Both the position numbers and the translations under genes were made by a program. A DNA stretch of 64,000 bases from Flagellimonas lutaonensis (lineage in GTDB: Bacteria; Bacteroidota; Bacteroidia; Flavobacteriales; Flavobacteriaceae), in the NCBI RefSeq assembly GCF_000963865.1, contig NZ_CP011071.1, forward strand, positions 1,120,501 to 1,184,500, read 5' to 3'. The notes under the pieces were generated by a model that saw nothing but the letters and a program-made list of their open reading frames with translations, was not told where the DNA came from and made no database searches. Below, piece after piece: positions 10,643 to 25,254 of the stretch. Every line of letters starts with the position of its first letter. Position 1 is the first letter of the stretch.

Positions 10643-10888
10643 TTAGCTAAGATTGATGACTTCTTGAATTTGGGGGGCATATTTCTTTATGGTCATTTCG
10701 ACCCCACTCTTCAAGGTCATTTGATTGACACTGCAACCAATACAATTTCCCTCGAGCCTTACCTTTACAGAAGTATCATTGTCTATCGATATCAAAGTGA
10801 TATCGCCCCCATCACTTTGAAGAAAGGGGCGTATTTCATCCAAGGCTTTCTCTACGTTGCTTCTTAGTTCTTCCGGTGTCATACTCAT
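10643..10888 (-). CDS. NifU C-terminal-like Fe-S scaffold
   Basis: An 81-residue protein made only of the NifU C-terminal (Nfu) domain, with the cluster-binding pair Cys49 and Cys52 in GNCIGCSVNQ. Nfu proteins carry a 4Fe-4S or 2Fe-2S cluster between assembly machinery and target enzymes, usually as a dimer bridging one cluster. Its start overlaps the stop of the Mrp gene by 4 bp, giving translational coupling with an Fe-S carrier ATPase. Its length is normal for stand-alone Nfu proteins. Confidence 0.93.
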   Translation of the reverse strand: MSMTPEELRSNVEKALDEIRPFLQSDGGDITLISIDNDTSVKVRLEGNCIGCSVNQMTLKSGVEMTIKKYAPQIQEVINLS

Positions 10889-12024
10889 TTCTTTTTTACC
10901 GCATCACAACCTGCCATGGTCGTTATCTTAATGGCCTCTGTCGGCGGCAGATCTTTGTTGCGCCGTACCAACTGGCTCACCACGTTTTTGGTCAATTCTT
11001 CAAAAGCTTCCTCAACAGGGGTGGCTGTTTGCATGGCCGCTGGCCGCCCGACATCGCCCGCCTCCCGAATGCTTTGTACCAAAGGAATTTCCCCTAAAAA
11101 TGGCACATCTAGATCTTCTGCCAAATTTTTGGCACCCGCCTGACCAAAGATATAGTATTTATTGTTCGGCAACTCTGCCGGGGTGAAATAGGCCATATTT
11201 TCAACGATGCCCAAAACCGGTACGTTGATGGCCTCTTGTTGAAACATGGCAACCCCTTTTCGGGCATCGGCCAAGGCCACTTCTTGGGGGGTGCTCACCA
11301 CAACCGCCCCTGTTACGGGAAGTGCCTGCATGATGCTCAGATGGATATCTCCGGTACCCGGTGGCAAGTCGACCAGCAAAAAGTCGAGCTCGCCCCAATG
11401 GGCATCAAAAATCATTTGGTTCAAGGCCTTGGCAGCCATGGGACCACGCCAAATCACCGCTTGGTTCGGCTGGGTGAAAAACCCTATGGAAAGCATTTTG
11501 ACCCCATAATTTTCAACAGGTTTCATTTTGGCCCGGCCGTCAATGTTGACCGATAGGGGTTTTTCCATCGCCACATCAAACATAATGGGCATCGAAGGGC
11601 CATAGATGTCGGCATCCAAAAGGCCCACCTTGAAGCCCATTTTCGCCAGTGTAACGGCAAGGTTCGCCGTAATGGTAGATTTGCCTACCCCTCCTTTTCC
11701 CGAGGCCACTGCGATAATGTTTTGGATACCCGGAATGGGCTTGCCCTTGATTTCGTTCACTTTCGACTTGCCCGGCGCATCAACCCTAAGGTTTACCTTT
11801 ATTTTCGCTTTCTCATAGACCTTTTCATGAATGGTCTTCAATATCGCTACCTCGGTCTTTTTTCGTGCCTGAAGACTCGGGTTTTTGATGGTGACATCTA
11901 CCTCTACCTCATCGCCAAAAACCTGAACATTGGTCACGGCCCCACTCTCTACCATGTTCTGCCCCTCACCGGGTACTGAGATGGTCTTCAGAGCCTCTAG
12001 AATATCTTTTTTGTGCAGCTTCAT
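10885..12024 (-). CDS. Mrp/NBP35-family Fe-S carrier ATPase
   Basis: A 379-residue protein with an N-terminal MIP18-like domain (1-85) and a P-loop ATPase domain with deviant Walker A SGKGGVGKST (108-117) and LLDADIYGPSMP. Mrp/ApbC proteins load or carry 4Fe-4S clusters. The CxxC pair that bridges the cluster in ApbC (after ENM.YF) is absent: here that segment reads ENMAYFTPAELP, and the only Cys is near the C-terminus. This may be a lineage-typical variant, but it means cluster binding by the usual ligands cannot be assumed. It is the first gene of the operon with the Nfu-like protein, reductase and ferredoxin. Confidence 0.9.
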   Translation of the reverse strand: MKLHKKDILEALKTISVPGEGQNMVESGAVTNVQVFGDEVEVDVTIKNPSLQARKKTEVAILKTIHEKVYEKAKIKVNLRVDAPGKSKVNEIKGKPIPGIQNIIAVASGKGGVGKSTITANLAVTLAKMGFKVGLLDADIYGPSMPIMFDVAMEKPLSVNIDGRAKMKPVENYGVKMLSIGFFTQPNQAVIWRGPMAAKALNQMIFDAHWGELDFLLVDLPPGTGDIHLSIMQALPVTGAVVVSTPQEVALADARKGVAMFQQEAINVPVLGIVENMAYFTPAELPNNKYYIFGQAGAKNLAEDLDVPFLGEIPLVQSIREAGDVGRPAAMQTATPVEEAFEELTKNVVSQLVRRNKDLPPTEAIKITTMAGCDAVKKK

Positions 12025-12091
12025 GCTTTTAATTTCAACTAGTTTGTGCTAAGCCTATCGAAGCACAGTCGTTTAAACTGATTCTAAATTA

Positions 12092-12099
12092 CAAAGATA
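12092..12099 (-). promoter_or_regulatory. Candidate -7 box for the mrp operon
   Basis: Minus-strand TATCTTTG matches TAnnTTTG exactly and would give a leader of about 60 nt before the mrp start at 12024. The remaining part of this roughly 200-bp gap holds an 8-bp inverted repeat (12048-12055 with 12107-12114) but no gene. Confidence 0.45.
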
Positions 12100-12223
12100 C
12101 GGCTTTGGCTTAGCTAATAAAAGTAGATGGATTGAAAATGGAGATGGCGTGATAGGAAGCCTTTATTTGGTAAAATGTCTTAATTTTTGAAAGATTTACA
12201 GATGATTTCGCTCGATGCGACAT

Positions 12224-12550
12224 CTACTGCAATTCTTTGGCGGGGTCCCAAAAGTGCTTCTGAAAATCGACGATTTGGTTATCGACCACCTTGATGCCTT
12301 CGTTTTCGAGCAGTTGCTGCATTAAATTGGAGCCATCAAAATGGTGTTTGCCCGTTAATACCCCGACACGGTTTACCACCCGATGGGCAGGCACATCCTT
12401 TGCCAACGAATTGTTCATGGCCCAGCCGACCATACGGGCACTACGGGCCGCCCCCAGATACTTGGCAATCGCTCCGTAAGAAGTTACCCTGCCATACGGA
12501 ATCTGTTTGGCTACCTCGTAAACCTTATCGAAAAAGTTTCGCTCTTTCAT
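12224..12550 (-). CDS. Alkyltransferase-like (ATL) DNA repair protein
   Basis: A 108-residue protein with the fold of the O6-alkylguanine-DNA alkyltransferase C-terminal domain: YGRVTSYGAIAKYLG, the DNA-binding turn RSARMVGWAMN, and PAHRVVNRVG. The active-site Cys of PCHRV is Ala55 here, so it cannot accept an alkyl group. Such ATL proteins bind O6-alkylguanine and hand it to nucleotide excision repair. The ATG at 12550 overlaps the upstream LysE-family stop (TGATG); a GTG one codon earlier is also open. It is the last gene of the trmB-lysE-atl cluster. Confidence 0.88.
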   Translation of the reverse strand: MKERNFFDKVYEVAKQIPYGRVTSYGAIAKYLGAARSARMVGWAMNNSLAKDVPAHRVVNRVGVLTGKHHFDGSNLMQQLLENEGIKVVDNQIVDFQKHFWDPAKELQ

Positions 12551-13179
12551 CACTTGTAGAAAATCCTTATCAAGGTGATGGCCAGCAAGACCACCATCAA
12601 GGCACTCAGTATGAAGTTCGAATTTCTGGAGAAAGTACTGGTCTTGGTCTCCAATTTATTGAAATAAAACACATATAGGTACAACACTGAGAAGGTGCCA
12701 CAGGCCGCAGCAAACACAAATGTTGCAATGTCTTGGGCCTCGAACTTTATCCAGCCTGCCTCGTTCCACATGGCATTCAGGCCACTATAGTAAGGTATGG
12801 TCAATAAATTCAGCGCTGCCAGCGCAAGCCCCCTGAAAAAGCTGTTCTTTTTGCTCACATTTACTGTGGTGAAATCTTTGGCCTTGTTGCGCTTGGCCAC
12901 CACAAAAAAATACACGGCAAAAAAGGCAAAGACCACAATGGCAGCCTTAAAGAGCACATCGATTACCTGTGGGTTGTTATATAAAAATTTTGAGATGTAC
13001 ACAGCAATATAGGCCTGCGCCATGATCATGGTAGATACGCCCAAACTGAAAACGATGCCGTTCAGTTTACCTTTTTCAACACTGGCCTTGGCCGCGTTCA
13101 TATTGAGAAGGCCCGGAGGCACGGTAGCCATGAAGGCTGCCGAATAGGTGGCAAAAAAAAGTATCAACAAGTGGGTCAT
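12550..13179 (-). CDS. LysE-family exporter
   Basis: A 209-residue membrane protein with about six hydrophobic helices and the N-terminal ATVPPGLLNMNAAKASVEKG block typical of the LysE/RhtB superfamily (PGP followed by a charged residue at the end of helix 1). These proteins export amino acids or other small cations by proton exchange; the substrate here is not predictable. It starts 3 bp after the trmB stop and its own stop overlaps the ATL start, so the three genes form one transcript. Confidence 0.82.
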   Translation of the reverse strand: MTHLLILFFATYSAAFMATVPPGLLNMNAAKASVEKGKLNGIVFSLGVSTMIMAQAYIAVYISKFLYNNPQVIDVLFKAAIVVFAFFAVYFFVVAKRNKAKDFTTVNVSKKNSFFRGLALAALNLLTIPYYSGLNAMWNEAGWIKFEAQDIATFVFAAACGTFSVLYLYVFYFNKLETKTSTFSRNSNFILSALMVVLLAITLIRIFYK

Positions 13180-13182
13180 TGG

Positions 13183-13851
13183 TCAGTTGATCCTAAATTG
13201 GATGTAGGTAATCGGTTTTCCTTTTTCAAGATACTGATTTTCATAAAATGTCTGAATCTCCAGCACCTCTTTGGGGCTTCCCTCGTTTTTATAGACATCA
13301 TGGTTGGCATAAATAACCTCAACCCCTATGCCGTGCAAAAGGCCCAAGGTGTACCCATGCATAAACTCGCTGTCTGTTTTAAGGTGCACTAGACCACCGG
13401 GCTTTAAAATACGTTTGTATTTGTCTAGAAACTGTAGGTTGGTCATTCGGTGCTTGGTACGTTTGTACTTGATTTGCGGATCGGGAAAAGTGATCCATAT
13501 CTCCGAGACCTCTTCTTTGCCGAACAACAGGTCTATCAACTCTATTTGGCTTCGTAAAAAGGCCACATTCACAAGATTTTCTTGCAGCGCGGTTTTGGCC
13601 CCCCGCCAGAAACGGGCACCTTTGATGTCGACGCCTATATAGTTGACATTAGGGTTCATTCGTGCCAAGCCCACGGTATATTCGCCTTTTCCGCACCCCA
13701 ATTCCAGCACAATAGGCTTATCATTCTTAAAAAAGGACGCCCATTTTCCCGTATACCTGAAACCTTGTAACACCTCTTCGCGAGGGGGTTGAACAACATT
13801 GGCAAAGGTCTCGTTCTCGGCAAACCGCTTTAGCTTGTTCTTGCTTCCCAA
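13183..13851 (-). CDS. trmB: tRNA (guanine-N7)-methyltransferase
   Basis: A 222-residue SAM-dependent enzyme that methylates G46 in the tRNA variable loop. The SAM loop is VLELGCGKGEY, the family motif is WITFPDPQIKYKRTKHR, and the C-terminal TFYENQYLEKGKPITY is typical of TrmB. The start codon is TTG at 13851: the protein begins GSKNKLKRF as in relatives and no ATG lies upstream in frame before the promoter box. A perfect -7 element at 13874-13881 gives a leader of about 16 nt, supporting this start. First gene of a cluster with a LysE exporter and ATL. Confidence 0.95.
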   Translation of the reverse strand: MGSKNKLKRFAENETFANVVQPPREEVLQGFRYTGKWASFFKNDKPIVLELGCGKGEYTVGLARMNPNVNYIGVDIKGARFWRGAKTALQENLVNVAFLRSQIELIDLLFGKEEVSEIWITFPDPQIKYKRTKHRMTNLQFLDKYKRILKPGGLVHLKTDSEFMHGYTLGLLHGIGVEVIYANHDVYKNEGSPKEVLEIQTFYENQYLEKGKPITYIQFRIN

Positions 13852-13873
13852 ACCAAAAAGATTAAAGTTTTGG

Positions 13874-13881
13874 CAAAACTA
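13874..13881 (-). promoter_or_regulatory. Candidate -7 box for trmB
   Basis: Minus-strand TAGTTTTG, exact match to TAnnTTTG, ending 22 nt before the TTG start of trmB. Confidence 0.5.
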
Positions 13882-13941
13882 AGGAAAACCGTTCACCAAT
13901 TACGAAAGATAGGTCCAAGCAAGAAAAGGGCACTAAAAGTA

Positions 13942-14997
13942 CTATTTACCGGATTTAGTTGCCTTTTCCAGCGTGAATGAAAATTCAGAACCCACACCCT
14001 CTTCGCTCTCAACATAAATTTTTTCGCCGTGGGCCTCAATAATATGCTTGACAATGGAAAGGCCGAGGCCCGAACCACCCTCTTTTCTGCTGCCGCTCTT
14101 ATCGACCCTATAGAATCTTTCAAAAAGTCTCGGCAAGTGCTCTTGGGCAATGCCCTCGCCGTTATCGGTAACCCTGACGATTACCTTGTTCTTTATCAAG
14201 TTCTCGACACTCACCTCGGTGGTACCGTCTATTTGGCCGTATTTTATGGAATTCATGAGTAGATTTGAAACTACCTGCTGAATCTTTTCTTTATCGCCCA
14301 TTACATATATGGGCTCGTCGTATTCCATATCAAAGGTCAGGGTTATATTTTTCTTCGAAGCCCTGATTTCAAGCAGGTCAAAAACGTTTCTAATCAACTC
14401 CACGATATCAAAGCGCTCTTTTTCAAGATGCAGGTCGCCCACCTCCAGTTTGGTGATAAGGTCAAGGTCTTTGATAATATAGATAAGGCGTTCTACCCCT
14501 TTGTTGGCCCTTTCCAGATATTTGTGCCGTACCTTTTTATCGTTTATGGCCCCATCAAGCAAGGTCAATATATAGCCCTGAACGGTAAAAAGAGGGGTTT
14601 TGAGCTCATGGCTGACATTACCGAGAAACTCTTTACGGTATTCTTCTCGAATTCGCAACGTATCGATCTCAATTTTTTTGTCCTGGGCGAATTTTTCGAT
14701 TTCTTCTGTAAGGGTCTTCATATCGGTAGTGATGGGCCGGTTCGAAAATGAAGAGGACTCGAGCAGTGACACATCATCATATATCTTTTTGACCCTCCTA
14801 TAGATAAACCTTTCTACCCGAATTTGTAAAATCAAAAAAGAAATAATAAAAACAACCGGAAAGGACAGCAATGCATCCACATAGTCGTACCGCTCAAAAA
14901 AGTAGGCGGCCAACAGCACTGCCAAGCAAAAAATCAACGAGATATAAAAAGAAGAACGCAGGGCAAACCTATATGACTTGCGTAGTTTAAGGGCCAT
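13942..14997 (-). CDS. phoR: PhoR-like sensor histidine kinase
   Basis: A 351-residue kinase with two closely spaced N-terminal membrane helices (about 14-34 and 40-58), no obvious periplasmic domain, a HisKA motif NVSHELKTPL with His130, and an ATPase domain with N box LLMNSIKYG, DNGEGI and GSGLGLSIVKHIIE. It overlaps the response regulator by one base, so the two are co-translated. The short N-terminus without a periplasmic sensor domain is as in PhoR, which senses phosphate status through the transporter. The phosphate assignment rests on this layout, the OmpR/PhoB-type partner, and Pho-box-like repeats upstream; it is an inference. Confidence 0.85.
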   Translation of the reverse strand: MALKLRKSYRFALRSSFYISLIFCLAVLLAAYFFERYDYVDALLSFPVVFIISFLILQIRVERFIYRRVKKIYDDVSLLESSSFSNRPITTDMKTLTEEIEKFAQDKKIEIDTLRIREEYRKEFLGNVSHELKTPLFTVQGYILTLLDGAINDKKVRHKYLERANKGVERLIYIIKDLDLITKLEVGDLHLEKERFDIVELIRNVFDLLEIRASKKNITLTFDMEYDEPIYVMGDKEKIQQVVSNLLMNSIKYGQIDGTTEVSVENLIKNKVIVRVTDNGEGIAQEHLPRLFERFYRVDKSGSRKEGGSGLGLSIVKHIIEAHGEKIYVESEEGVGSEFSFTLEKATKSGK

Positions 14998-15683
14998 TAT
15001 AGTACAAACTTATAGCCCACCCCTTTGACAGTCTTGAAATGATGGTCCCCGATTTTTTCGCGCAATTTTCTAATATGCACATCGATGGTTCTGCCCCCGA
15101 CCACCACTTCGTTGCCCCAGACCTTGTCTAGAATAACTTCTCTCTTAAAAACCTTGCTGGGTTTTGAGGTAAGAAGCGACAGTAGTTCAAATTCTTTTCG
15201 GGGCAAGATGATTTCCTTGCCGTTTTTGACGATTTTGTATTCTTCGCGGTTGATAACGATATCGCCCACCTTTACAATGTCTTCGGTTTCAGATTCATCA
15301 TTTTTCAATCTTCTTAGCAGCGCCTTTACCTTGCTGACCAACACCTTGGGCTTTATAGGCTTTGTGATGTAATCATCGGCACCGGCATCAAAGCCGGCCA
15401 CCTGGGAATAGTCTTCGCCCCTTGCGGTCAAAAATGTGATGACCGTATTTTCCAATCCCGGTGTCTTGCGAATGATCTCGCACGCCTCGATACCATCCAT
15501 CTCCGGCATCATCACATCGAGGATGATCAAATGGGGATGTTTCTTCTTTGCCTTGGCCACACCCTCCACTCCGTTCTTGGCGGTAAAGACCTGATAGCCC
15601 TCTGACGATAGATTGTAGCTGACAATTTCCAAAATGTCAGGTTCGTCATCTACCAAAAGTATCTTGATATCCTTTTTTTTCAT
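14997..15683 (-). CDS. phoB: PhoB-like response regulator
   Basis: A 228-residue OmpR/PhoB-class regulator. The receiver has the acidic pair D12/D13, phospho-acceptor D56 (LIILDVMMPEMDG), T87 region (FLTARGEDY) and K108 (ITKPIKP). The winged-helix domain from about 135 ends with VWGNEVVVGGRTIDVHIRKLREKIG and KTVKGVGYKF. It is the first gene of the two-component operon and reads away from the lipoprotein/TonB receptor genes, with 198 bp between start codons. A perfect -7 box sits 26 nt before the start. Confidence 0.88.
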   Translation of the reverse strand: MKKKDIKILLVDDEPDILEIVSYNLSSEGYQVFTAKNGVEGVAKAKKKHPHLIILDVMMPEMDGIEACEIIRKTPGLENTVITFLTARGEDYSQVAGFDAGADDYITKPIKPKVLVSKVKALLRRLKNDESETEDIVKVGDIVINREEYKIVKNGKEIILPRKEFELLSLLTSKPSKVFKREVILDKVWGNEVVVGGRTIDVHIRKLREKIGDHHFKTVKGVGYKFVL

Positions 15684-15709
15684 TAGATGCGGAAGTTTAG
15701 TTAACCTCT

Positions 15710-15717
15710 CAAATGTA
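15710..15717 (-). promoter_or_regulatory. Candidate -7 box for phoBR
   Basis: Minus-strand TACATTTG, exact TAnnTTTG match, ending 26 nt before the phoB start. The distal repeat pair at 15745-15761 begins about 28 bp upstream of it, a position suited to autoregulation. Confidence 0.5.
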
Positions 15718-15744
15718 AAGATAATACTAAAACCTCTCTAGCCC

Positions 15745-15761
15745 TTAACATTGATTTAATG
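15745..15761 (+). promoter_or_regulatory. Distal Pho-box-like repeat pair
   Basis: TTAACA at 15745 and TTAATG at 15756 are spaced 11 bp start to start, the same period as the proximal triple repeat. A further GTAACA at 15764 is off phase. It lies nearer the phoB promoter than the lipoprotein promoter. Site identity is inferred. Confidence 0.35.
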
Positions 15762-15796
15762 TGGTAACACTATCGTAAAGGTTTTTAAATAAACTC

Positions 15797-15824
15797 TTAA
15801 CAAAGGGCTAACACGACCTTTACA
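15797..15824 (+). promoter_or_regulatory. Proximal Pho-box-like triple direct repeat
   Basis: TTAACA (15797), CTAACA (15808) and TTTACA (15819) repeat with an exact 11-bp period, one helical turn. PhoB-family regulators bind 11-bp direct repeats of this general kind. The last repeat ends 9 bp before a -7-like TTTATTTG (15834-15841), the spacing at which a Pho box replaces the -35 region in enteric promoters. This would activate the lipoprotein/TonB receptor genes. Confidence 0.5.
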
Positions 15825-15881
15825 ACACACTTCTTTATTTGCAGAGTGTTTTGGAAAAGAAAATTGATCAACACTTTAACT

Positions 15882-17342
15882 ATGAAAACAAAAAATTTAA
15901 GCCTTATGAAAAAATTATTTTTATTTCTAATCGCTGCGGTTACGATGACATTTATCGCATGCAGTGATGATGATAACGGACCGACCCCAATCATACAAGA
16001 TGCTGATGGTGATGGTATCGAAGACAGCGTTGATAATTGCCCAAATGCTGCGAATGCCGACCAAGCGGACAACGATAATGATGGCATTGGCAACGTTTGC
16101 GATCCCACCCCGAATGGTGAAGTGGCTACGTGTAATGATGGCATAAAGAATGGAGATGAAACCGATGTTGATTTTGGGGGTTCTTGTGCAGGTCTAATCA
16201 CAGTTACAGGTGAAATTACCGAAGACACAACTTGGACCAGGGATAATATTTATTTGCTTGGCGGCAAAGTAGTTGTAGGCGTGGGCGTCACTTTGACCAT
16301 AGAACCTGGTACCATCATAAAAGGTAAATCCGGGTCGGGTTCCTTAGCTTCCGCACTTATAGTGCAAAGAGGTTCTAAAATTAATGCGGTGGGTACCGCA
16401 GAACGACCTATCATTTTCACCTCGGAGCAAGATAACATTCAAGTTGGTGAAACTGCTGGCACCAATCTTGACCAAAATGACAATGGGCTATGGGGTGGCG
16501 TTTTGGTCTTGGGAAATGCCCCGGCATCGCTTTCAGGTGACGTGACCGAAGAGCAAATTGAGGGTATTCCTGCCAGCGATACATTCGGGTTGTTTGGAGG
16601 AAATGATCCTGCAGATGACTCTGGAGACTTAGCTTATATTTCCATTCGCCATGGTGGTGCCTTGATTGGTGAGGGCAACGAAATCAATGGCCTTACTTTA
16701 GGTGGTGTCGGTTCTGGCACATCCATTTCAAACATAGAAATTGTAGGTAACGAAGATGATGGTTTGGAAATCTTTGGCGGTACAGTCGATGTAAGTAATG
16801 TGTTTGTGTGGTCGGTAGCAGATGATGGTATCGATTTAGATCAAGCTTGGTCTGGAACCTTGACCAATGGTATGGTGGTACAAGGATTGCGTTCTGACAG
16901 TGCCTTGGAGCTTGATGGTCCTGAGGGCAGCACAACGGGAGGCTTTACGTTGAACAATATTACTTTAGTGGGCAACACAGATGCTGCAGGCACGGGGTCA
17001 CGACGGATAGCGGATTACCGTGACGGTCTTGAGGCCGATATCAACAATGTTTTCGTTACCGGATTCTCTGACGTGCAATTGGTACGGCTTAACGGAGACG
17101 AATCCGCCACTACTTACAACAACGATTTGTTGAATTTCATGGCATGGGAATTTGTGTTGCCGGCAGGTGTAGCGAATGTAAATGCAATGCACACTTTGAA
17201 AGACGTGACCATCGCCACGGATTTTGTAACCGACTCTTCGACTTGGGCAAGTGCCGTTGCCGAAGGTGCTGCGACCGTTGGTGCTGACACTTCAGCTTTC
17301 GCATGGACTTATTCCAATACCAAGGCAAATCTTGGCTTCTAA
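15882..17342 (+). CDS. Lipoprotein with thrombospondin-3-like calcium repeat and beta-helix-like domain
   Basis: A 486-residue lipoprotein (lipobox IAC with Cys27; a second start at 15906 would give the same signal). The acidic tail and DADGDGIEDSVDNCP/DNDNDGIGNVCDP segments (40-75) are thrombospondin type 3 repeats, which bind calcium. From about 110 the chain is Gly/Val/Thr-rich with parallel beta-helix character (LTIEPGTIIKGKSGSG, ISNIEIVGNEDDGLEIFGG). It is probably surface-exposed. It sits between PhoB/PhoR and a TonB receptor, behind Pho-box-like repeats, so a role in capturing a phosphate source is plausible but unproven. GTG at 15846 is open but lies ahead of the signal and is not used. 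Confidence 0.75.
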   Translation: MKTKNLSLMKKLFLFLIAAVTMTFIACSDDDNGPTPIIQDADGDGIEDSVDNCPNAANADQADNDNDGIGNVCDPTPNGEVATCNDGIKNGDETDVDFGGSCAGLITVTGEITEDTTWTRDNIYLLGGKVVVGVGVTLTIEPGTIIKGKSGSGSLASALIVQRGSKINAVGTAERPIIFTSEQDNIQVGETAGTNLDQNDNGLWGGVLVLGNAPASLSGDVTEEQIEGIPASDTFGLFGGNDPADDSGDLAYISIRHGGALIGEGNEINGLTLGGVGSGTSISNIEIVGNEDDGLEIFGGTVDVSNVFVWSVADDGIDLDQAWSGTLTNGMVVQGLRSDSALELDGPEGSTTGGFTLNNITLVGNTDAAGTGSRRIADYRDGLEADINNVFVTGFSDVQLVRLNGDESATTYNNDLLNFMAWEFVLPAGVANVNAMHTLKDVTIATDFVTDSSTWASAVAEGAATVGADTSAFAWTYSNTKANLGF

Positions 17343-17373
17343 GATTGTCAGTTTTTAAATAAGTATAAATAAG

Positions 17374-17405
17374 AAACTCGCCCCGAGTAGTGGGGCGGGT
17401 TTTTT
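17374..17405 (+). terminator. Intercistronic terminator between lipoprotein and TonB receptor
   Basis: CTCGCCCC (17377-17384) pairs with GGGGCGGG (17392-17399) and is followed by six T. It lies in the 80-bp gap, 17 bp before the receptor start codon, leaving no room for a separate promoter downstream. It may act as a partial terminator that lowers receptor expression relative to the lipoprotein. Confidence 0.85.
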
Positions 17406-17422
17406 CTCTTAAAACCAAACAG

Positions 17423-20242
17423 ATGCTGAAAAAAGCCTTACTTACGCTCTTCACATTGACCATTGCATATACCGCAATCGGTCAAAGCGGTATTAGCGGA
17501 ACACTCTTTGACGGGGAGATAAACGACGTGTTACCGTTTGCCAATGTTTTGATTGAAGGTACATCAAAAGGTGCTACCTCTGATTTTGACGGCAAGTATG
17601 AAATTTCAATCGAGCCGGGCACTTATGCTTTAGTGGTTTCTTACTTGGGCTACGAGACCAAGAAAATAACAGATATTGTGGTAGAGCCCAATGAATATAC
17701 CATTGTGGATGTCACCCTAAATTCGTCTGCAAACCAACTGGATGAAGTAGTTGTCACAACAAGTGTTACTAAAAATACAGAGGCCTCAGTATTGCAAGTA
17801 CAGAAAGCATCGGTAAAATTATTGGACGGCCTATCACTGCAAAGTATCAAAAGAACCGGTGCCAACGATATTGCCTCTGCAGTCAAATCTGTTCCTGGAG
17901 TTTCTGTTCAAGGAGGCAAATATGTTTATGTGAGGGGCCTAGGCGATAGATATACCAAAACTACCTTAAACGGCATGGATGTACCCGGATTGGACCCGGA
18001 CAGAAATACGCTTCAACTGGATCTATTTCCCACGACTATTCTGGATAACATACAGGTCGTAAAATCATTCACCCCCGAATCATCAGCCGATTTTACCGGT
18101 GGTTATGTCGACATTGTCACCAAAGATATTCCCTCCAAACAGGAATATAATCTTTCTGTGGGAGTTGGCTACAACTCCTCTATGCACTTCAATGATAATT
18201 TTTTGACTTCAAAGAAAAGTAGTACCGATTTTCTGGGTTTTGATAATGGTCAACGTGACCTACCGATTGGCCGTAGTGAGGTCATACCGCCCCCATCAGC
18301 AGACAATCCGGCCTTGACCCAGTTCACACAAAGGTTAGAGCCGGAAATGGCTGTCAAAAAAGACCAAAGCTTTATGAACTACAACTTTAGTTTTTCAGGG
18401 GGGAATCAGTACAGTATTGGTGAAGAGTCTAGGCTTGGTTTCTTGGCTTCTCTAAGCTATCGTAACACAACCGATTTTTTTCAAGATGCCGAGAACAATT
18501 TTTGGTTCAAAAACAGGTCAAGCAGTGCAATATATGAGTTGGAACCAGATCGCCTACAGAGTGGTGACATAGCCATTAACAATGTTTTAATCAGTGGACT
18601 TGCCGGGATAGCACTTAAAACAAAAAGGTCAAAATATAAGTTGAACATACTGCATATTCAAAATGGCGAGTCTAGAAATGCCTTTTTCAATGTAGCGTCT
18701 TTACTATTTGATGAAGTTCGCGGTGTACGGGATAATATTGAATACACCGAGAGATCGGTCACCAATGCGTTCTTGGGCGGAATCCATACCAGTTCTGATG
18801 CTTCATGGACAGTAGAATGGAAATTTTCCCCAACTCTTTCCATTATTAATGACAAAGATGTGCGTTTTTCATCATTTGAAATAAATGATGTTGGGGAATT
18901 GATAATAAGACCTAGTAGCTTTGGCCCCCCTACGAGAATATGGCGAGATCTTGAGGAAATCAATCTAGCTGGTAAACTTGATTTCACCAGAAAACATAAA
19001 TTGTTCAATAAGAACGCGAAGCTGACTTTTGGTGGTGCCTACACCTATAAGGATAGGGACTTTGGTATAGACCAATATTTTCTGTCGGTTCTGCCGTCAC
19101 CCGCCGTTCCGATTGATGGTAATTCAGATAATCTGCTAATACCGGAAAACATCTGGACCCCAGAAACGGATGCGGGAACTTACATAACCGGAAATTTTGA
19201 GCCGACGAACACTTTCGAGGCGTATTCTACCCTTGCGGCTGCACATATTGGTGAAGAATTCCAGTTATCCCCACGTTTGAAAAGCATTTTAGGCCTTCGT
19301 TATGAAAAGTTCGAACTTTTTTACACAGGCCAGAACAACCTTGGGGACATCGTTTTGAACGAAGAAAAAATTATCGATGTATCTGATATTTTTCCATCAG
19401 CCAACTTGATTTTTGACTTTAATGAAGAAGGGAATACAAAAGCAAGGGCATCATATTCTAAGACCACGGCCCGCCCATCCTTTAAAGAGGCCTCGATAGC
19501 CGAGATATTCGATCCTTTGACCAACAGGGTTTTTATTGGTAACCTTGATTTAGAACCTACTTATATCAATAATTTTGATTTACGTTTTGAAAGGTACGGT
19601 GAGAACTCCCAATTTTTTGCAATAAGCGCTTTCTACAAGACTTTTACCGACCCGATAGAATTAGTGGCTTTTGAGCAAGCCCCGGATAATTTTAAGCCAC
19701 AGAACGTCGAGTCGGCACGGGTTTTCGGAGCAGAATTGGAAGTAAGGCAGTCCCTTGGAATTTTGAGCCCTGCCTTTAAAGAAGTCTCCTTGAATGCGAA
19801 TTTCTCCGTAATAGATTCGCAAGTCGATATGAGCGAAACCGAATTCAACTCTCGCCAATTGGCTGCCCGAGAGGGAGAAAGAATAGAAGACACAAGAGAA
19901 TTACAAGGGCAATCCCCATTCTTGATAAATCTTGGCGTGAATTATCGAGGTCAAAACAATGGATGGCAAGGGGGTCTTTTCTACAATGTTCAGGGAAAGA
20001 CCCTAGAAGTAGTCGGAATCAGAGCGGTTCCTGACGTATATACCTTACCTTTCCACAATTTGACGATGTCAATAGGAAAGGAGTTTGGTAAGAATAGGAA
20101 TTCTAGGATAACAGTGAGATTTTCGAACATTTTAGATGATAAAATAGAGAGTGTTTATCAATCGTTCAGGGCTAACGATCAGATTTACTCATTGCGTGAT
20201 CCCGGTCAGACCATTTCTTTGGGTTATAGCTTAAATTTTTAA
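17423..20242 (+). CDS. TonB-dependent outer-membrane receptor, probable Pho-regulon member
   Basis: A 939-residue receptor: signal peptide (to about AIGQ, residue 20), a carboxypeptidase-D-like domain (about 22-105, ANVLIEGTSKGATSDFDGKYEI), a plug domain (SVPGVSVQGGKYVYVRGLGDRY, TLNGMDVPG, GGYVDIVTKD) and a 22-strand-type barrel ending in a terminal aromatic-rich strand (ISLGYSLNF). There is no SusD partner. The ATG at 17423 is chosen because it begins the signal peptide. The neighbouring lipoprotein may be its surface partner, and the phoBR pair its regulator; the substrate is unknown (phosphate ester or polyphosphate would fit). Confidence 0.88.
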   Translation: MLKKALLTLFTLTIAYTAIGQSGISGTLFDGEINDVLPFANVLIEGTSKGATSDFDGKYEISIEPGTYALVVSYLGYETKKITDIVVEPNEYTIVDVTLNSSANQLDEVVVTTSVTKNTEASVLQVQKASVKLLDGLSLQSIKRTGANDIASAVKSVPGVSVQGGKYVYVRGLGDRYTKTTLNGMDVPGLDPDRNTLQLDLFPTTILDNIQVVKSFTPESSADFTGGYVDIVTKDIPSKQEYNLSVGVGYNSSMHFNDNFLTSKKSSTDFLGFDNGQRDLPIGRSEVIPPPSADNPALTQFTQRLEPEMAVKKDQSFMNYNFSFSGGNQYSIGEESRLGFLASLSYRNTTDFFQDAENNFWFKNRSSSAIYELEPDRLQSGDIAINNVLISGLAGIALKTKRSKYKLNILHIQNGESRNAFFNVASLLFDEVRGVRDNIEYTERSVTNAFLGGIHTSSDASWTVEWKFSPTLSIINDKDVRFSSFEINDVGELIIRPSSFGPPTRIWRDLEEINLAGKLDFTRKHKLFNKNAKLTFGGAYTYKDRDFGIDQYFLSVLPSPAVPIDGNSDNLLIPENIWTPETDAGTYITGNFEPTNTFEAYSTLAAAHIGEEFQLSPRLKSILGLRYEKFELFYTGQNNLGDIVLNEEKIIDVSDIFPSANLIFDFNEEGNTKARASYSKTTARPSFKEASIAEIFDPLTNRVFIGNLDLEPTYINNFDLRFERYGENSQFFAISAFYKTFTDPIELVAFEQAPDNFKPQNVESARVFGAELEVRQSLGILSPAFKEVSLNANFSVIDSQVDMSETEFNSRQLAAREGERIEDTRELQGQSPFLINLGVNYRGQNNGWQGGLFYNVQGKTLEVVGIRAVPDVYTLPFHNLTMSIGKEFGKNRNSRITVRFSNILDDKIESVYQSFRANDQIYSLRDPGQTISLGYSLNF

Positions 20243-20271
20243 CTAATTGAGTCAGTTAGTTTAAATGCCTG

Positions 20272-20304
20272 AAAGGCCTTGATATTGAAATCAGGGCCTT
20301 TTTT
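20272..20304 (+). terminator. Rho-independent terminator of the TonB receptor
   Basis: Twelve-base arms AAAGGCCTTGAT and ATCAGGGCCTTT (one G-T pair) with a 6-nt loop and a T-run. Confidence 0.88.
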
Positions 20305-20368
20305 GTGCATTTCATCGAAAAGTGTAGTGTTTTTCTTTCCTCCAAAAAGCTTAGCAGGCTAAAATTTC

Positions 20369-20376
20369 TATATTTG
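20369..20376 (+). promoter_or_regulatory. Candidate -7 box for first mini-T9SS gene
   Basis: TATATTTG, exact TAnnTTTG match, ending 27 nt before the ATG at 20404. Confidence 0.5.
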
Positions 20377-20403
20377 TGGCATACCCTTTGCTACCAGTAC
20401 TTT

Positions 20404-20712
20404 ATGAAGCACTTTTACCTGATTGCATTCTTCTTTGTTTGCTCCCTGGGATTTTCACAACAATCTCAAGGTAAGGGTGATATTGACGGGCTCAAACTTT
20501 ATCCAAATCCTGTAACAAACGGTAAAATCTTTATCAGCACCACCCTGAATGCCCCAAAAAAAATCCTGATTTTTGATATATTGGGCACTCAAGTCTTGCA
20601 GACAACCATTTTGGGCAAAGAATTGAACCTCTCTGATCTTGACAAAGGGGTCTATATTATTCGGGTCTTCGAAAAAGACAAGGTGGCTACCCGAAAGCTT
20701 ATCATCCGATAA
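20404..20712 (+). CDS. Minimal secreted T9SS type A sorting-domain protein
   Basis: A 102-residue protein: signal peptide (cut near GFSQ, residue 19), about ten spacer residues, then a complete T9SS type A C-terminal domain (LKLYPNPVTNGKIFIS, ILIFDILGTQVLQ, LDKGVYIIRVFEKDKVATRKLIIR). In this family the domain directs a cargo through the type IX secretion system; here there is virtually no cargo. The reading frame extends upstream to 20305, but only the ATG at 20404 starts the signal peptide and it matches the promoter box. A paralogous gene follows 166 bp downstream. It may be a regulator or surface peptide; function unknown. Confidence 0.8.
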   Translation: MKHFYLIAFFFVCSLGFSQQSQGKGDIDGLKLYPNPVTNGKIFISTTLNAPKKILIFDILGTQVLQTTILGKELNLSDLDKGVYIIRVFEKDKVATRKLIIR

Positions 20713-20878
20713 TTTTAAAAGGGCTTCCCACTCTTTAAAACCGCACCTTCTTCACAAGTAAATTCCCTTTCACATCAAAGAAATGGCCTTTACCTACAAA
20801 AATTGGCGTTTCACAACATTTAGTACTTGATTGTAAGACATTTACATACCTTTACCCTGCTTATCCCAAATCAAGCAT

Positions 20879-21202
20879 ATGAAGAAAATCTACTTAATCC
20901 TCATTATGGTGATTCCAATATATGCCATGGGCCAAGACCTTGTAGAGGTCAACCACCCCAAGCCACAGGAGCTAAAGGGTTTTAAAATGTACCCAAACCC
21001 TGCTTATGGCGATGAAATCTATATTACCACCGCCACCAACGGCAACAAGAAGATTGCCGTCTATGATGTGTTTGGCGAACTGGTATTGACAGAGGTGATT
21101 ACCACAAATACCTTGAACATTTCACGGTTGGTTCCTGGGGTGTATGTGCTGCAGGTAACCGAACGTAAAAAGACCATGACCCGAAAACTTGTGGTCAAAT
21201 AA
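20879..21202 (+). CDS. Minimal secreted T9SS type A sorting-domain protein, paralogue
   Basis: A 107-residue paralogue of the preceding gene: signal peptide cut near AMGQ (residue 19), about 13 spacer residues, then the sorting domain (FKMYPNPAYGDEIYI, IAVYDVFGELVLTEV, LVPGVYVLQVTERKKTMTRKLVVK). Overall similarity to its neighbour is clear but partial, so the duplication is not recent. Like it, the protein has no recognisable cargo. A TACCTTTA (one mismatch to TAnnTTTG) upstream suggests its own promoter, and a terminator follows. Confidence 0.8.
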   Translation: MKKIYLILIMVIPIYAMGQDLVEVNHPKPQELKGFKMYPNPAYGDEIYITTATNGNKKIAVYDVFGELVLTEVITTNTLNISRLVPGVYVLQVTERKKTMTRKLVVK

Positions 21203-21224
21203 TCACAGAAAACATTAAGTGCAC

Positions 21225-21253
21225 AAAGGCCCTGACAATAGTCGGGGCTTTTT
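21225..21253 (+). terminator. Terminator after second mini-T9SS gene
   Basis: AAAGGCCCTGAC and GTCGGGGCTTT form a stem with a 4-nt loop and a T-run just before the LuxE-like gene. Confidence 0.8.
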
Positions 21254-21278
21254 ATTTTGGCTATTTTAGCCAATACCA

Positions 21279-22265
21279 ATGGATGATGGGATAGCAAATA
21301 AAATTTTTGAAATTTCCGGCGAAAAGGATTTTGAACAAACGGCCCTGGAACTTTTTGGGCATCAATACCAAAACAATGCCGTTTACAAGACCTTTTGCGA
21401 TCATTTAAGGAAAGCGCCGCCCAATGTCAAACAATTGGATGACATACCGTTTTTGCCCATCGAGTTTTTTAAATCACATCAGGTGGTCTCGGGCAAAAAA
21501 GATTATGCCCTGTGTTTTGAAAGCAGTGGTACCACTGGTGCTGAAACCAGCAAACACTTTGTGGCCGACCCATCGCTCTATAAAAAAAGCTTTTTGTTGG
21601 GTTTCGAGCGTTGTTACGGCCGGGTCGATGAACTGTGCATCTTGGCCCTATTGCCCTCATATCTTGAACGGCAAGGCTCATCGTTGGTCTTTATGGTGGA
21701 AGAACTCATCAAAAGAACCGGGCATCCTGACAGCGGTTTTTATCTCTACAATCACGATGAACTCCATCAAAAACTTCAAAAACTAGAGAAAACCAATACC
21801 AAATCACTCTTGATCGGGGTATCGTTTGCCCTATTGGATTTTGCCGAAAAATATCCGCAGCAACTAAAACACACCACGGTTATGGAAACGGGGGGTATGA
21901 AGGGCCGACGCAAAGAGCTGATCAGGGAAGAACTGCACAGACTCTTGACAACTGCCTTTGGGGTCGAAAAAATCCACTCAGAGTACGGGATGACCGAATT
22001 GCTCTCACAGGCCTATTCAAAAGGGAACGGTAGGTTTGAAGCCCCGCCATGGATGAAAATAATGATCCGCGACACCGAAGACCCCTTGCACTACCCGATA
22101 GTGGACAAAACAGGTGGGGTAAATGTCATTGACCTGGCCAATATCGACTCATGCGCTTTTATCGCCACCCAAGACTTGGGCAAGGCAAATGATGATGGCA
22201 GTTTTGAAATATTGGGCCGCTTTGACCACTCTGATGTGAGGGGCTGTAATTTGATGGCCCTGTAA
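21279..22265 (+). CDS. LuxE-like acyl-protein synthetase / adenylate-forming enzyme
   Basis: A 328-residue member of the LuxE branch of the ANL adenylating superfamily. The ATP loop is ESSGTTGAETSKH, the mid motif is HSEYGMTEL and the C-terminal hinge GRFDHSDVRGCN. LuxE activates fatty acids to acyl-AMP and transfers them to its own Cys in luminescent bacteria; relatives in non-luminous bacteria activate other acids. It lacks the mobile C-terminal ANL domain, as usual for this branch. It stands alone, with no luxCD or reductase gene nearby, so the acid activated is unknown. After it, about 180 bp to tyrS hold no recognised feature. Confidence 0.82.
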   Translation: MDDGIANKIFEISGEKDFEQTALELFGHQYQNNAVYKTFCDHLRKAPPNVKQLDDIPFLPIEFFKSHQVVSGKKDYALCFESSGTTGAETSKHFVADPSLYKKSFLLGFERCYGRVDELCILALLPSYLERQGSSLVFMVEELIKRTGHPDSGFYLYNHDELHQKLQKLEKTNTKSLLIGVSFALLDFAEKYPQQLKHTTVMETGGMKGRRKELIREELHRLLTTAFGVEKIHSEYGMTELLSQAYSKGNGRFEAPPWMKIMIRDTEDPLHYPIVDKTGGVNVIDLANIDSCAFIATQDLGKANDDGSFEILGRFDHSDVRGCNLMAL

Positions 22266-22445
22266 GAATAAATCTCATTTTGCCTTATGTTCCATTTCAA
22301 TAAAGGAATTGTGGGCGCATATTTAATTTACTTTTCCCTCTCTTTATTACGGCACTGTAAAAGACACAAAACAAATTGTCTTTCCCGATTTATTCGATTT
22401 CTATACGGTATGTTGCTCCTGCTCCTTGGCAGAATTATATAGATA

Positions 22446-23741
22446 TCATTTAAAGACCAGTACAAAGTAATTCTTTTTGCCCCGCTGCAGTAAAACAAAC
22501 TTATCGTTGATAAGGTCGTTCTTGGTGATGGTATGCTGCTGGCCCACTTTCTCTTTGTTTACAGAGATGGCGTTTTGCTTCAATTCCCTGATGGCTTCAC
22601 CGTTCGATTTCAGAAATCCGGTTTTGGCGGCAAGGGCTGCTACCATATCCAACCCTTCATCAAGAACATCGCCGGAAAGCTCAGCTTGGGGCACCCCTTC
22701 AAAAACTTCTAGAAAGGTTTTTTCGTCGAGCTGCTTTAACTGGTCAGATGTCGACTTTCCAAAAAGTATTTCACTGGCCCTTACCGCGTTCTCAAAATCT
22801 TGCCGCGAATGCACCATAACGGTAACCTCCTCGGCCAATTTTTTCTGTAGAATTCTTAAGTGGGGTGCTTGGTTGTGTTCGCCCACCAGACTTTCTATTT
22901 CTTCTTTGGGCAAGAGGGTGAAAATCTTGATGTACTTTTCGGCATCCTCATCTGAGGTGTTCAGCCAATACTGATAGAATTTATAGGGTGATGTACGGTC
23001 GGCATCCAACCAAATATTACCACTTTCTGTCTTACCGAACTTAGATCCGTCTGCTTTGGTTATCAACGGGCAGGTTAGGGCATAGCCCTTGCCTCCATCA
23101 ATTCTGCGAATAAGCTCTGTGCCGGTAGTGATGTTTCCCCATTGGTCGCTGCCGCCCATTTGTAATGTACAGTCGTATTCTCGATAGAGGTGCAAAAAAT
23201 CGTAGCCTTGCACCAGCTGGTAGGTAAACTCGGTAAAAGACATGCCTTCTTTTGCGTCTGATGACAATCTTTTTTTCACAGAGTCTTTTGCCATCATATA
23301 ATTGACGGTTATATGCTTGCCCACATCTCTAATGAAGTCCAGAAAAGAAAAATCCTTCATCCAATCATAATTGTTCACCAAAATCGCCGCATTCTTTTCG
23401 TCGCTTTCAAAATCGAGAAAACGGGCCAACTGTTCTTTGATGGCCTCTTGGTTGTGCCGCAACGTCTCTTCATCGAGCAGGTTTCGCTCGGCCGATTTTC
23501 CTGAGGGATCGCCAATCATACCGGTGGCGCCTCCCACCAGTGCAACAGGCCTGTGCCCCGCCAGCTGAAAATGTCGCAGCATCATCACACTGACCAAATG
23601 GCCAATATGCAACGAATCTGCCGTAGGGTCAATGCCCACATAAGCTGATTGTATGCCACGCAACAGGTGTTCTTCGGTACCGGGCATAACATCATGAAGC
23701 ATGCCCCTCCATTCCAATTCCTTGACAAAATTCTTCGTCAT
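22446..23741 (-). CDS. tyrS: Tyrosyl-tRNA synthetase
   Basis: A 431-residue class I synthetase that charges tRNA-Tyr. HIGH motif at 45-48 (LHIGHL), the KMSKS equivalent KFGKT in [12 protein letters not shown], tyrosine-binding YDFLHL and [10 protein letters not shown], and a C-terminal S4-like RNA-binding region ([11 protein letters not shown]). The ATG at 23741 is used; the TTG at 23768 lies inside the promoter box region and is not a start. Full length for the bacterial TyrS. Confidence 0.98.
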
Positions 23742-23765
23742 TTTGAGCTTTTGGTTGAATTCTTG

Positions 23766-23773
23766 CAAATATA
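23766..23773 (-). promoter_or_regulatory. Candidate -7 box for tyrS
   Basis: Minus-strand TATATTTG, exact TAnnTTTG match, ending 24 nt before ATG 23741; a TTG lies about 22 bp further upstream at the usual -33 distance. Confidence 0.55.
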
Positions 23774-23828
23774 GAATGTTGTGCTACAATTACATCAATA
23801 TTACCAAGCAATTCGGTACTTTTAGAGC

Positions 23829-24845
23829 ATGGTTTTGGTAACGGGGGGCACAGGTCTTATCGGGTCGCACTTGCTGTTTGAGTTGTTGAAGAACAAACAG
23901 CCCGTGCGGGCCATTTATCGCTCTAAGAAGAGCCTTGAAAAGACAGAGAAGGTATTTTCGTACTATTCTGAACATCCCAAACAATTGATGGAAAAAATTG
24001 ATTGGGTACAAGCCGATCTGCTCGATACTACCCAATTGAATCAAAGCATAAAGGACGTGCAATACGTTTACCATTGTGCCGCCTTGATATCTTTCAATCC
24101 CGCCGATTACCAAGAGTTGGTCAAGGTCAATGTGAAGGGTACGGCCAATATTGTCAATGTCTGTCTGGTAAACAGGGTCAAAAAGCTGTGCTACCTAAGT
24201 TCGATTGCCGCCTTGGGCACCCAAACAAACGGTACGCCGGTTACCGAGAACACCCCTTGGACGGATAAAAATGCCACGGTGTACGGTCTAACCAAAAGAA
24301 GGGCAGAACTAGAGGTATGGAGAGGTACCCAAGAGGGGCTTCCCGCGGTAATTCTAAATCCTGGTGTGGTGCTGGGACCCGGATTTTGGAAAAGTGGCAG
24401 CGGCTCCTTTTTTTACTTTGCCTCAAAAGGAAACAAAAAAGCACCCCCCGGGGGCACCGGTTTCGTCTCAATCAATGATGTGGTCAGGGGCTTGATTCAG
24501 GCTATGGGGCCGGGCATTTCTAAAGAACGTTTCATCTTTGTCTCTGAGAACCTTACCTATCTAGAGATACTGCAAAGAATCGCCCGCCGATTGGGCAAAC
24601 CGGTTCCAGAGAAGGAATATGGCAAACTGGCCATCGAGGTTTTCTGGCGGCTTGATTGGGTGCGGTCCAAGCTATTGAACAAAAGAAGGCGACTGGCAAA
24701 ACAAACCGCAAAGTCTTTGTTTAACAGACAGTACTATAGCAATAAAAAAGCAACGGAATTATTGGAGTTCGAATTTGAGAACCTCGACACGGCGATAGAT
24801 TTCTGCTGTGAAAAATTTAAGGCTGATTTTCCGGAATTTTTTTAA
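23829..24845 (+). CDS. Extended SDR NAD(P)-dependent epimerase/reductase
   Basis: A 338-residue extended short-chain dehydrogenase: Rossmann motif VTGGTGLIGSH at the N-terminus, NAG-like HCAALISF, catalytic Ser in LSSIAALG and YGLTK (Tyr and Lys). It resembles the dihydroflavonol reductase / 3-beta-HSD branch; substrate unknown. The C-terminal third is basic (RSKLLNKRRRLAK). The last 29 bp overlap the 3' end of the convergent DUF4296 gene. Confidence 0.85.
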   Translation: MVLVTGGTGLIGSHLLFELLKNKQPVRAIYRSKKSLEKTEKVFSYYSEHPKQLMEKIDWVQADLLDTTQLNQSIKDVQYVYHCAALISFNPADYQELVKVNVKGTANIVNVCLVNRVKKLCYLSSIAALGTQTNGTPVTENTPWTDKNATVYGLTKRRAELEVWRGTQEGLPAVILNPGVVLGPGFWKSGSGSFFYFASKGNKKAPPGGTGFVSINDVVRGLIQAMGPGISKERFIFVSENLTYLEILQRIARRLGKPVPEKEYGKLAIEVFWRLDWVRSKLLNKRRRLAKQTAKSLFNRQYYSNKKATELLEFEFENLDTAIDFCCEKFKADFPEFF

Positions 24846-25254
24846 TGGACTTGGCCGAGATGGAAGAATCGCTCCTTTTCTTGGTCACATTCCGAAGGCT
24901 ATCTGTTTTTTCCTTTCTTGCCTTTTCTAGAATCTTGGCCTGCATTTCCAAACGAGCCTCAACATTTTCATAAATGGCTTGATACTTGAGTGGAAGCGAA
25001 GCGTAGTAAAGATCGCTCGAGGCCAACTGTGCACTATCTATACCATGCTTGTTGTAAATAAACCGCATGGCGTCGATATCGTTGGTTCGCAATATGGACT
25101 TATTGGTCGATTTGGCGGCCTGTAGTATGGCCAAATCGTACAAAATATCTGTCATTTGCTCCTCGCTTAAAAGGTTTTCTGGTTTTTCAACAACCTTCTC
25201 GGCACAAGAACAGCAACACAAAATAACCAATACCCAAATAAATGTTCGTATCAT
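24817..25254 (-). CDS. DUF4296 lipoprotein
   Basis: A 145-residue lipoprotein (CCCSCAEK near 13-20 as lipobox) of the Bacteroidota DUF4296 family, with the conserved block LLSEEQMTDILYDLAILQAAK and a helical, Lys-rich C-terminus. Function unknown. Its start overlaps the pyrC stop by 4 bp, making it the third gene of the GT2-pyrC-DUF4296 operon; its 3' end overlaps the convergent reductase gene by 29 bp. Confidence 0.88.
   Translation of the reverse strand: MIRTFIWVLVILCCCSCAEKVVEKPENLLSEEQMTDILYDLAILQAAKSTNKSILRTNDIDAMRFIYNKHGIDSAQLASSDLYYASLPLKYQAIYENVEARLEMQAKILEKARKEKTDSLRNVTKKRSDSSISAKSIKKIPENQP

Follow-up and report, generated by a model that had tools for sequence, protein, structure and literature searches.

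In the 64,000-nucleotide stretch of Flagellimonas lutaonensis DNA analyzed here (contig NZ_CP011071.1, positions 1,120,501 to 1,184,500 of the forward strand; hereafter the window), a first-pass annotation noticed 11-bp direct repeats between a PhoB/PhoR-like gene pair and the genes for a calcium-repeat lipoprotein and a TonB receptor, raising the question of whether these repeats form a Pho operator and which genes it would serve. Domain scans agree with that description of the neighborhood. On one side, both on the minus strand, are genes for a PhoR-like histidine kinase of 351 aa (13942–14997), with HisKA (PF00512) and HATPase_c (PF02518) domains and no PAS domain in the Pfam scan, and a PhoB-like OmpR-family response regulator of 228 aa (14997–15683), with the receiver (PF00072) and OmpR-type winged helix (PF00486) of a PhoB protein. 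On the other side, both on the plus strand, are genes for a lipoprotein (15882–17342), which has a lipobox and a thrombospondin type 3 (TSP3) stretch rich in Asp (PF02412) and is predicted to form a beta-helix, and for a TonB-dependent receptor (17423–20242; PF00593, PF07715, and PF13715). We argue, with a probability of roughly 0.88, that a six-unit lattice of half-sites in the region between them is a Pho operator that activates the lipoprotein/TonB-receptor operon.

The three repeats first noticed, TTAACA (15797–15802), CTAACA (15808–15813), and TTTACA (15819–15824), can be read directly from the plus strand at an exact 11-bp spacing, and a 9-bp gap (15825–15833) separates the last of them from a −7-like element, TTTATTTGC (15834–15842, plus strand). 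GTAACA (15764–15769), GTAAAG (15775–15780), and TAAATA (15786–15791) continue the same register upstream, and the three noticed repeats are therefore the 3′ half of a lattice of six TTAAC-like half-sites spanning 15764–15824. In the promoter alignment described below, these upstream units correspond to conserved columns starting at −69, −58, and −47, respectively, the third being the least conserved; the three downstream units stand out by sequence, alignment, and chance count. The second 11-bp pair that had been placed nearer to phoB also exists (TTAACA at 15745–15750 and TTAATG at 15756–15761, plus strand), though on its own it is close to chance expectation. It is off the lattice register, with 19 bp from 15745 to the lattice unit at 15764, and it is present in 17 of 20 loci examined; in 13 of the 20 its position relative to the anchored −7 element is exactly −89. 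A candidate −7 element for phoB itself, TATCTTTAC, lies on the minus strand at 15715–15723, and its form recurs in 13 of the 20 loci examined.

The pattern YTWACA-N5-YTWACA-N5-YTWACA, with up to two mismatches allowed, occurred twice in the window (one perfect match and another overlapping it) compared to a mean of 0.15 in 100 dinucleotide shuffles, two of which reached two matches; this pattern was picked after the site had been seen, so conservation is a better test than the shuffle count. TTAACA-N5-TTAA, also found twice in the window, was expected 0.25 times, and 4 of 100 shuffles reached two, making the phoB-side pair weak when taken alone. Genome-wide, the loose three-unit pattern was not enriched (16 matches with up to two mismatches, several of them overlapping at one site, versus 24 for a reversed control), and we rejected it as an operator finder. 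Two of its matches that were viewed, L002 and L003, lie at no evident phosphate promoter. The first of these (L002, G000:C1:1677052-1677101) is a perfect three-unit match within an array of five TTTACA/CTAACA-like units at 11-bp spacing, with aspS-like and YwqK-like genes on either side and a porin–PHO4 promoter ~9 kb away; no −7 element was noticed at the usual distance from its units, and the array is perhaps a relic promoter. Here and below, aspS, YwqK, ogt, LysE, trmB, tyrS, and 'dGTPase' are names given to these genes on the basis of their sequences; for the dGTPase-like protein, Pfam gave HD alone.

To ask how the repeats fare across orthologous intergenic regions, the comparison by which the first-pass annotation held that its proposal could be judged, we collected relatives of the lipoprotein in two draws, the first yielding a match at E ≤ 0.001 in 52 of 60 related genomes and the second a match at E ≤ 1e-60 in 85 of 299 family genomes. 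The loci came from the better lipoprotein matches alone (E of 1.3e-65 or lower), and a start codon was obtained at 76 of them, the window's own copy (L017) included. The repeats are kept: 73 of the 76 promoters could be anchored on a −7 element (the anchor was missing at L029, L073, and L091), and in these promoters as a group the lattice is seen again. Information peaks start at −69, −58, −47, −36, −25, and −14, giving six TTAAC-like units on a single 11-bp lattice in which the −47 unit is the weakest. Spectral power of the information profile peaks at period 11.0 (0.215), a value reached by none of 20,000 column shuffles, and none of 2,000 shuffles reached it at any tested period; the promoter sequences are related to each other, so these shuffle figures are descriptive only. 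At least three of the 73 promoters are mis-anchored and were corrected for the profile described below only, so they still stand uncorrected in the alignment and spectral counts. Eighteen of the 73, poorly anchored or divergent, were dropped from that profile, and L022, L027, and L060 were re-anchored after viewing; all 21 remain in the conservation and spectral counts, as does the window's own copy, which was held out of the profile to leave 54 promoters.

The geometry of the lattice resembles that of known Pho boxes, which in E. coli are described as 11-nt direct repeats bound in tandem by PhoB (PMC4415409) and as ending 10 bp before the −10 element (PMC1906773). Instead of the two direct-repeat units of 11 bp that a Pho box requires as a minimum, six lie in register here, and the last ends 9 bp before the −7 element, a spacing that is the same in the ungapped 54-promoter alignment. 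The −7 element carries T as its second base in place of the A of TAnnTTTG, which is given as the consensus −7 element (PMC9723704), and the 73 anchored promoters have T at this base in 85% of cases and A in 12%. Such a conserved T-for-A departure would suit an activator-dependent promoter. If the −7 box covers −12 to −5, as described for F. psychrophilum (PMC9723704), transcription would start near 15846.

We next describe searches with a profile (R1) built from the 54 promoters, with the window excluded; its training rows were hand-curated after viewing (54 of 76), and its E-values are rough. In the 3.27-Mb genome, the top R1 match was the window promoter (15795–15843, plus strand; 31.3 bits, E 6.5e-7). 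A separate plain weight matrix scored this promoter at 41.2 bits, the runner-up in the 64 kb having 1.4 bits, and a reversed weight matrix peaked in the window at z 4.6 versus 7.4 for the true matrix. The second-ranking R1 site (E 1.4e-6; contig positions 1667794-1667842, minus strand), ~0.53 Mb away, lies upstream of genes for a CarbopepD-reg protein, a phosphate-selective porin (PF07396, Porin_O_P), and a PHO4-family transporter. The other ten of the 12 matches up to E 10 (E 0.03 to 6.2) had no clear phosphate link; one of them (L120) is the L002 site and another (L114) precedes a TonB-receptor-like gene. The genome has two strong sites only. Because a profile from which the window was held out has phosphate porin/PHO4 promoters among its next targets, these results support a Pho operator, and they support the proposal of a Bacteroidota Pho operator unlike the enteric one: the CTGTCAT core of the enteric Pho box is absent, and the core is TTAAC(A/C).

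We also applied R1 to 22 held-out genomes, which were picked because none had a close match to the lipoprotein (best E 1.7e-39 or higher). At E ≤ 0.05 there were 41 matches spread over 21 genomes, the remaining genome having none and five of the 22 having matches only at E > 1e-3. All 24 matches with E < 1e-3 lie upstream of receptor-lipoprotein (13), CarbopepD-reg (5), or porin/PHO4 (6) genes, the 13 being TonB receptor-lipoprotein operons. In the CarbopepD-reg group, a porin or PHO4 gene is visible behind four of the five, and the fifth runs into a contig end. Seven of the 17 weaker matches were examined: L139 is at a porin gene, L267 is before a PHO4 gene, and L138, L140–L142, and L151 had no evident phosphate gene. 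The same operator thus recurs at several phosphate genes, as a Pho box should, both at the porin/PHO4 cluster of the window's own genome and in the held-out genomes. Across the phylum and under stricter filters, 21 of 296 genomes, the window's own counted, had matches at E ≤ 0.001. Three of these matches fall outside the family. The one in G497 (L248), a member of another class of the phylum, is convincing: it lies upstream of the gene for a related TonB receptor and has four TTAAC units, with 10 bp between the last of them and TTATTTGG. The other two were set aside: the match in G385 (L255) faces away from its receptor-like gene and that in G500 (L256) looks fortuitous. In six sister-family genomes, R1 gave nothing at E < 0.05 at the phoB loci. 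The window's promoter was also found in Kriegella aquimaris and Arenibacter sp. P308M17, whose PhoB proteins are 89–90% identical to that of the window, an identity that by itself very probably places the window in Flavobacteriaceae.

The regulator encoded beside the lattice is best described as PhoB-like. Against NCBIfam models it scored 216.1 bits on TIGR02154 (cut-off 296.2) and 211 on NF053854 (cut-off 270), missing both cut-offs, but these were still its two best models. The kinase is best matched by PnpS and PhoR models and also missed its cut-off (237.7 of 334.2 bits on TIGR02966). The DNA-binding domain of the regulator matches solved OmpR-family domains, including that of E. coli PhoB (1gxp, E 1.4e-14). 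A genome search with PhoB gave 13 receiver-domain matches, of which two are as large as PhoB: the window's PhoB itself and a protein, L153, whose best NCBIfam model is RprY, below cut-off; a scan covering these two of the 13 found Trans_reg_C in both. PstS-type (PF12849) and PhoU (PF01895) matches numbered zero in the window's genome, and each model did give matches in 13 of 14 controls, so the genome misses the PstS-type protein and PhoU of Pst–PhoU signaling and with them the usual route for a phosphate signal. In the 764-residue PHO4 transporter, the best Pfam stretch extends to residue 335, and no PhoU domain was reported beyond it. Plant-associated Bacteroidetes are said to lack PstSABC (PMC8115612).

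Published systems offer several points of comparison. The cyanobacterial SphR Pho box is given as CTTAACCT, with at least three tandem 8-bp repeats and 3-bp linkers (PMC1906773). By sequence, the lattice core resembles this box more closely than the enteric CTGTCAT, sharing the 11-bp period, the TTAAC core, and a place upstream of phosphate genes; it differs in having up to six units and a Bacteroidota −7 element, in a genome with no PstS match, and in its targets, a beta-helix lipoprotein/TonB operon and a porin–PHO4 cluster. With the E. coli PhoB box, whose repeats are bound head-to-tail, it shares 11-nt direct repeats ending ~10 bp before the −10/−7 element, but the TTAAC(A/C) core, the larger number of units, and the promoter element are different. 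The PhoBR locus of F. johnsoniae (PUSIV), by its published description, likewise has phoR and phoB beside genes for a TonB receptor and for a lipoprotein that is compared there to polygalacturonase; by locus tags its receptor gene precedes the lipoprotein gene, unlike the order in the window (PMC8115612). Under Pi depletion, that receptor is reported at a fold change of 8.02 (apparently log2), the lipoprotein at 9.91, and PhoB itself up 3.06; the main text of the study contains neither 'Pho box' nor 'motif' (PMC8115612). Bacteroides fragilis PhoB, also from Bacteroidota, is described as binding a 512-bp pstC promoter fragment in a gel shift; its target is the pst operon, whereas the window's genome is without a PstS match, and the main text of that study contains neither 'consensus' nor 'motif' (PMC3547664). 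Putative Pho boxes have been mentioned, with no sequence alongside, at plcP clusters of marine bacteria (PMC4796936). In our searches of the open-access literature on a Pho box in Bacteroidetes, Flavobacterium, or Bacteroides, within which subscription papers mostly did not fall, we found no Bacteroidota consensus.

From the lattice as observed here, with its conservation, geometry, and linkage to phosphate genes, we propose the following mechanism. In low phosphate, the presumed signal, phosphorylated PhoB would bind head-to-tail to up to six 11-bp half-sites, the last of them 9–10 bp before the off-consensus −7 element. Because that element is off consensus, RNA polymerase would need PhoB to initiate, with PhoB acting as an activator rather than a repressor. 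The operon would yield a beta-helix lipoprotein, probably at the cell surface, and its TonB receptor, and the two presumably capture a phosphorus-containing substrate. The off-register pair nearer to phoB probably serves phoB autoregulation.

Three other explanations of the repeats were weighed against this mechanism. Another OmpR-family regulator, likeliest an RprY-like one responding to another stress, might read the lattice, with the adjacency of phoB being incidental. The genome does encode an RprY-like regulator (L153), and a protein of that kind may recognize a core like this one, since the Riemerella anatipestifer 'PhoP' DAP-seq motif is reported as TTTAACA (PMC9603813). We did not accept that motif as direct proof of PhoB binding because this 'PhoP' is unlike the window's PhoB: primers for it (PMC5399024) encode NGEEGLK and GYQLGAD, and the corresponding peptides of the window's PhoB are NGVEGVA and GFDAGAD. 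Sister-family regulators carry DGEQGLK and GYQLGAD, and one of them (L282) has RprY as its best model, below cut-off; judging from the two short primer-encoded peptides, R. anatipestifer 'PhoP' is probably RprY-like and not a PhoB orthologue. Against a reading of the lattice by such a regulator, all 24 strong held-out matches precede receptor-lipoprotein, CarbopepD-reg, or porin/PHO4 genes, and the comparable PhoBR-adjacent genes of F. johnsoniae are reported to be Pi-responsive (PMC8115612), and we consider it improbable. Still less probable is that the repeats are mainly an autoregulatory or repressing site of phoB and that the lipoprotein operon is driven by other means. The phoB-side pair and the form of the phoB −7 element are conserved next to phoB, and R. 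anatipestifer 'PhoP' is reported to bind its own promoter (PMC9603813), but the lattice also occurs at lipoprotein operons with no phoB alongside (48 of 76 have a dGTPase-like gene instead) and upstream of porin/PHO4 genes. That the repeats reflect chance or AT-rich promoter composition is scarcely credible, for although the phoB-side pair alone is near chance and the loose pattern shows no genome-wide excess, the 73-promoter alignment, the period-11 power, the top R1 rank, the held-out matches, and the weight matrix (z 7.4 versus 4.6) all speak against it.

The first gene of the operon that we assign to this Pho operator is likelier to start at the in-frame ATG at 15906, which would begin the signal peptide, than at 15882, and the lipobox lies at the N-terminus of the product. 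A structure model of the lipoprotein has a mean pLDDT of 83.5, with residues up to about 93 being low. No solved relative was found by sequence at E ≤ 0.01, and the best Foldseek matches, all with E > 0.001, were generic beta-helices such as tailspikes and pectate lyases. The combination of lipobox, pectin-lyase-like fold (here a predicted model), and adjoining receptor gene is that of ElpS/FII-type proteins. Caulobacter ElpS/Cc0171, by its published description, has a TonB receptor gene beside the lipoprotein gene, with ElpS being Pi-starvation-induced and at the surface; unlike the window's lipoprotein gene, elpS has a type II secretion cluster next to it, and constitutive expression is reported for cc0171 (PMC2996285). 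The pair is not of the SusC/SusD (PusCD) kind, as the lipoprotein matches PF02412 alone and the receptor reaches 61 bits against TIGR04056, for which the cut-off is 368.25. A relative of the receptor lies downstream of the lipoprotein in all 36 loci with enough sequence. In the gap between the two genes, a terminator-like hairpin can be read at 17373–17403 (plus strand), and a hairpin plus T-run occurs in 20 of 36 loci examined, the window's included, a count with no shuffled control; the hairpin could set the level of the lipoprotein above that of the receptor. In three loci (L025, L026, and L100, from G033, G014, and G230), two lipoprotein matches fall within a single frame of 795–830 aa behind the same promoter.

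An unexpected finding was that the operator stays by the regulator gene while related species bear different uptake operons under it. G002, of the same genus (L258), was compared with window positions 10885–26585. In an alignment that runs from the phoB-side pair through TTTGC, its operator agrees with the window's in 88 of 99 columns. On the phoB-side flank, ogt-, LysE-, and trmB-like genes, phoR, and phoB match the window in order at 81–95% protein identity, and on the far flank the identities are 72–88% for two sorting-domain proteins, a LuxE-like protein, and tyrS, with one additional 832-aa frame ahead of tyrS in G002. The operon in between has the receptor gene first and the lipoprotein gene second, the reverse of the window, and their products are 28% and 34% identical to the window's. 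G003, also of the same genus (L259), has the G002 arrangement, with 73 of 98 promoter positions matching. In genus g2, where only promoters were compared, G230 has the window's operon type (type A) and G004 the other type (type B, the receptor-first order also seen in F. johnsoniae), and their promoters are identical at 88 of 98 positions.

A PhoB tree was built for 36 loci, 21 with type A and 15 with type B; it includes four long-branch rows and L091, which may not be a true PhoB. On it, operon type requires at least six changes (5–6 in bootstrap trees), at least three of them forced by well-supported branches. Among the 76 type A operons, 18 are divergent from a phoB-like gene no more than 500 bp away and 48 from a dGTPase-like gene no more than 900 bp away, some with an intervening gene; the other 10 have neither arrangement in the available stretch. 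For 13 type B operons in the held-out genomes, the corresponding numbers were 5, 6, and 2. There seem, then, to be two docking sites, on the phoB side and on the dGTPase-like side: 66 of the 76 type A operons lie at one or the other, as do 11 of the 13 of type B. Beside the dGTPase-like gene, G027 has CarbopepD-reg, type A, porin, and PHO4 genes, and G018 has type B and PHO4. As a separate observation on that side, a TAnnTTGC element is present in 36 of 55 loci with no phoB-like gene in view, and a TTAACA-like pair lies 9–11 bp before it in 18 of the 36 (L081 being doubtful, and with no chance control); judged by these motifs, the dGTPase-like gene may be under Pho control too.

We consider it probable, at a lower level of assurance than for the operator itself, that the Pho operator beside phoB serves as a stationary dock at which one surface-uptake operon can be exchanged for another. 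Swaps would proceed by recombination through the conserved promoter and the downstream flank, driven perhaps by phages that use the receptors or by shifting phosphorus sources. Alternatively, the operon types could differ through differential loss from an ancestor that had both operons. Candidates for the presence of types A and B together in one genome (L262–L265) were rejected, being a weakly similar protein in another neighborhood with no phoB or receptor match.

Taken together, the lattice is very probably a real, conserved switch for a phosphate-starvation uptake operon in flavobacteria. Flavobacteria thereby gain a defined Pho operator, from which strong phosphate promoters become predictable from sequence, and PhoBR regulation in a genome with no PstS-type or PhoU matches becomes a testable problem. 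The exchange of operons under one kept promoter suggests that surface receptors are replaceable without loss of control.
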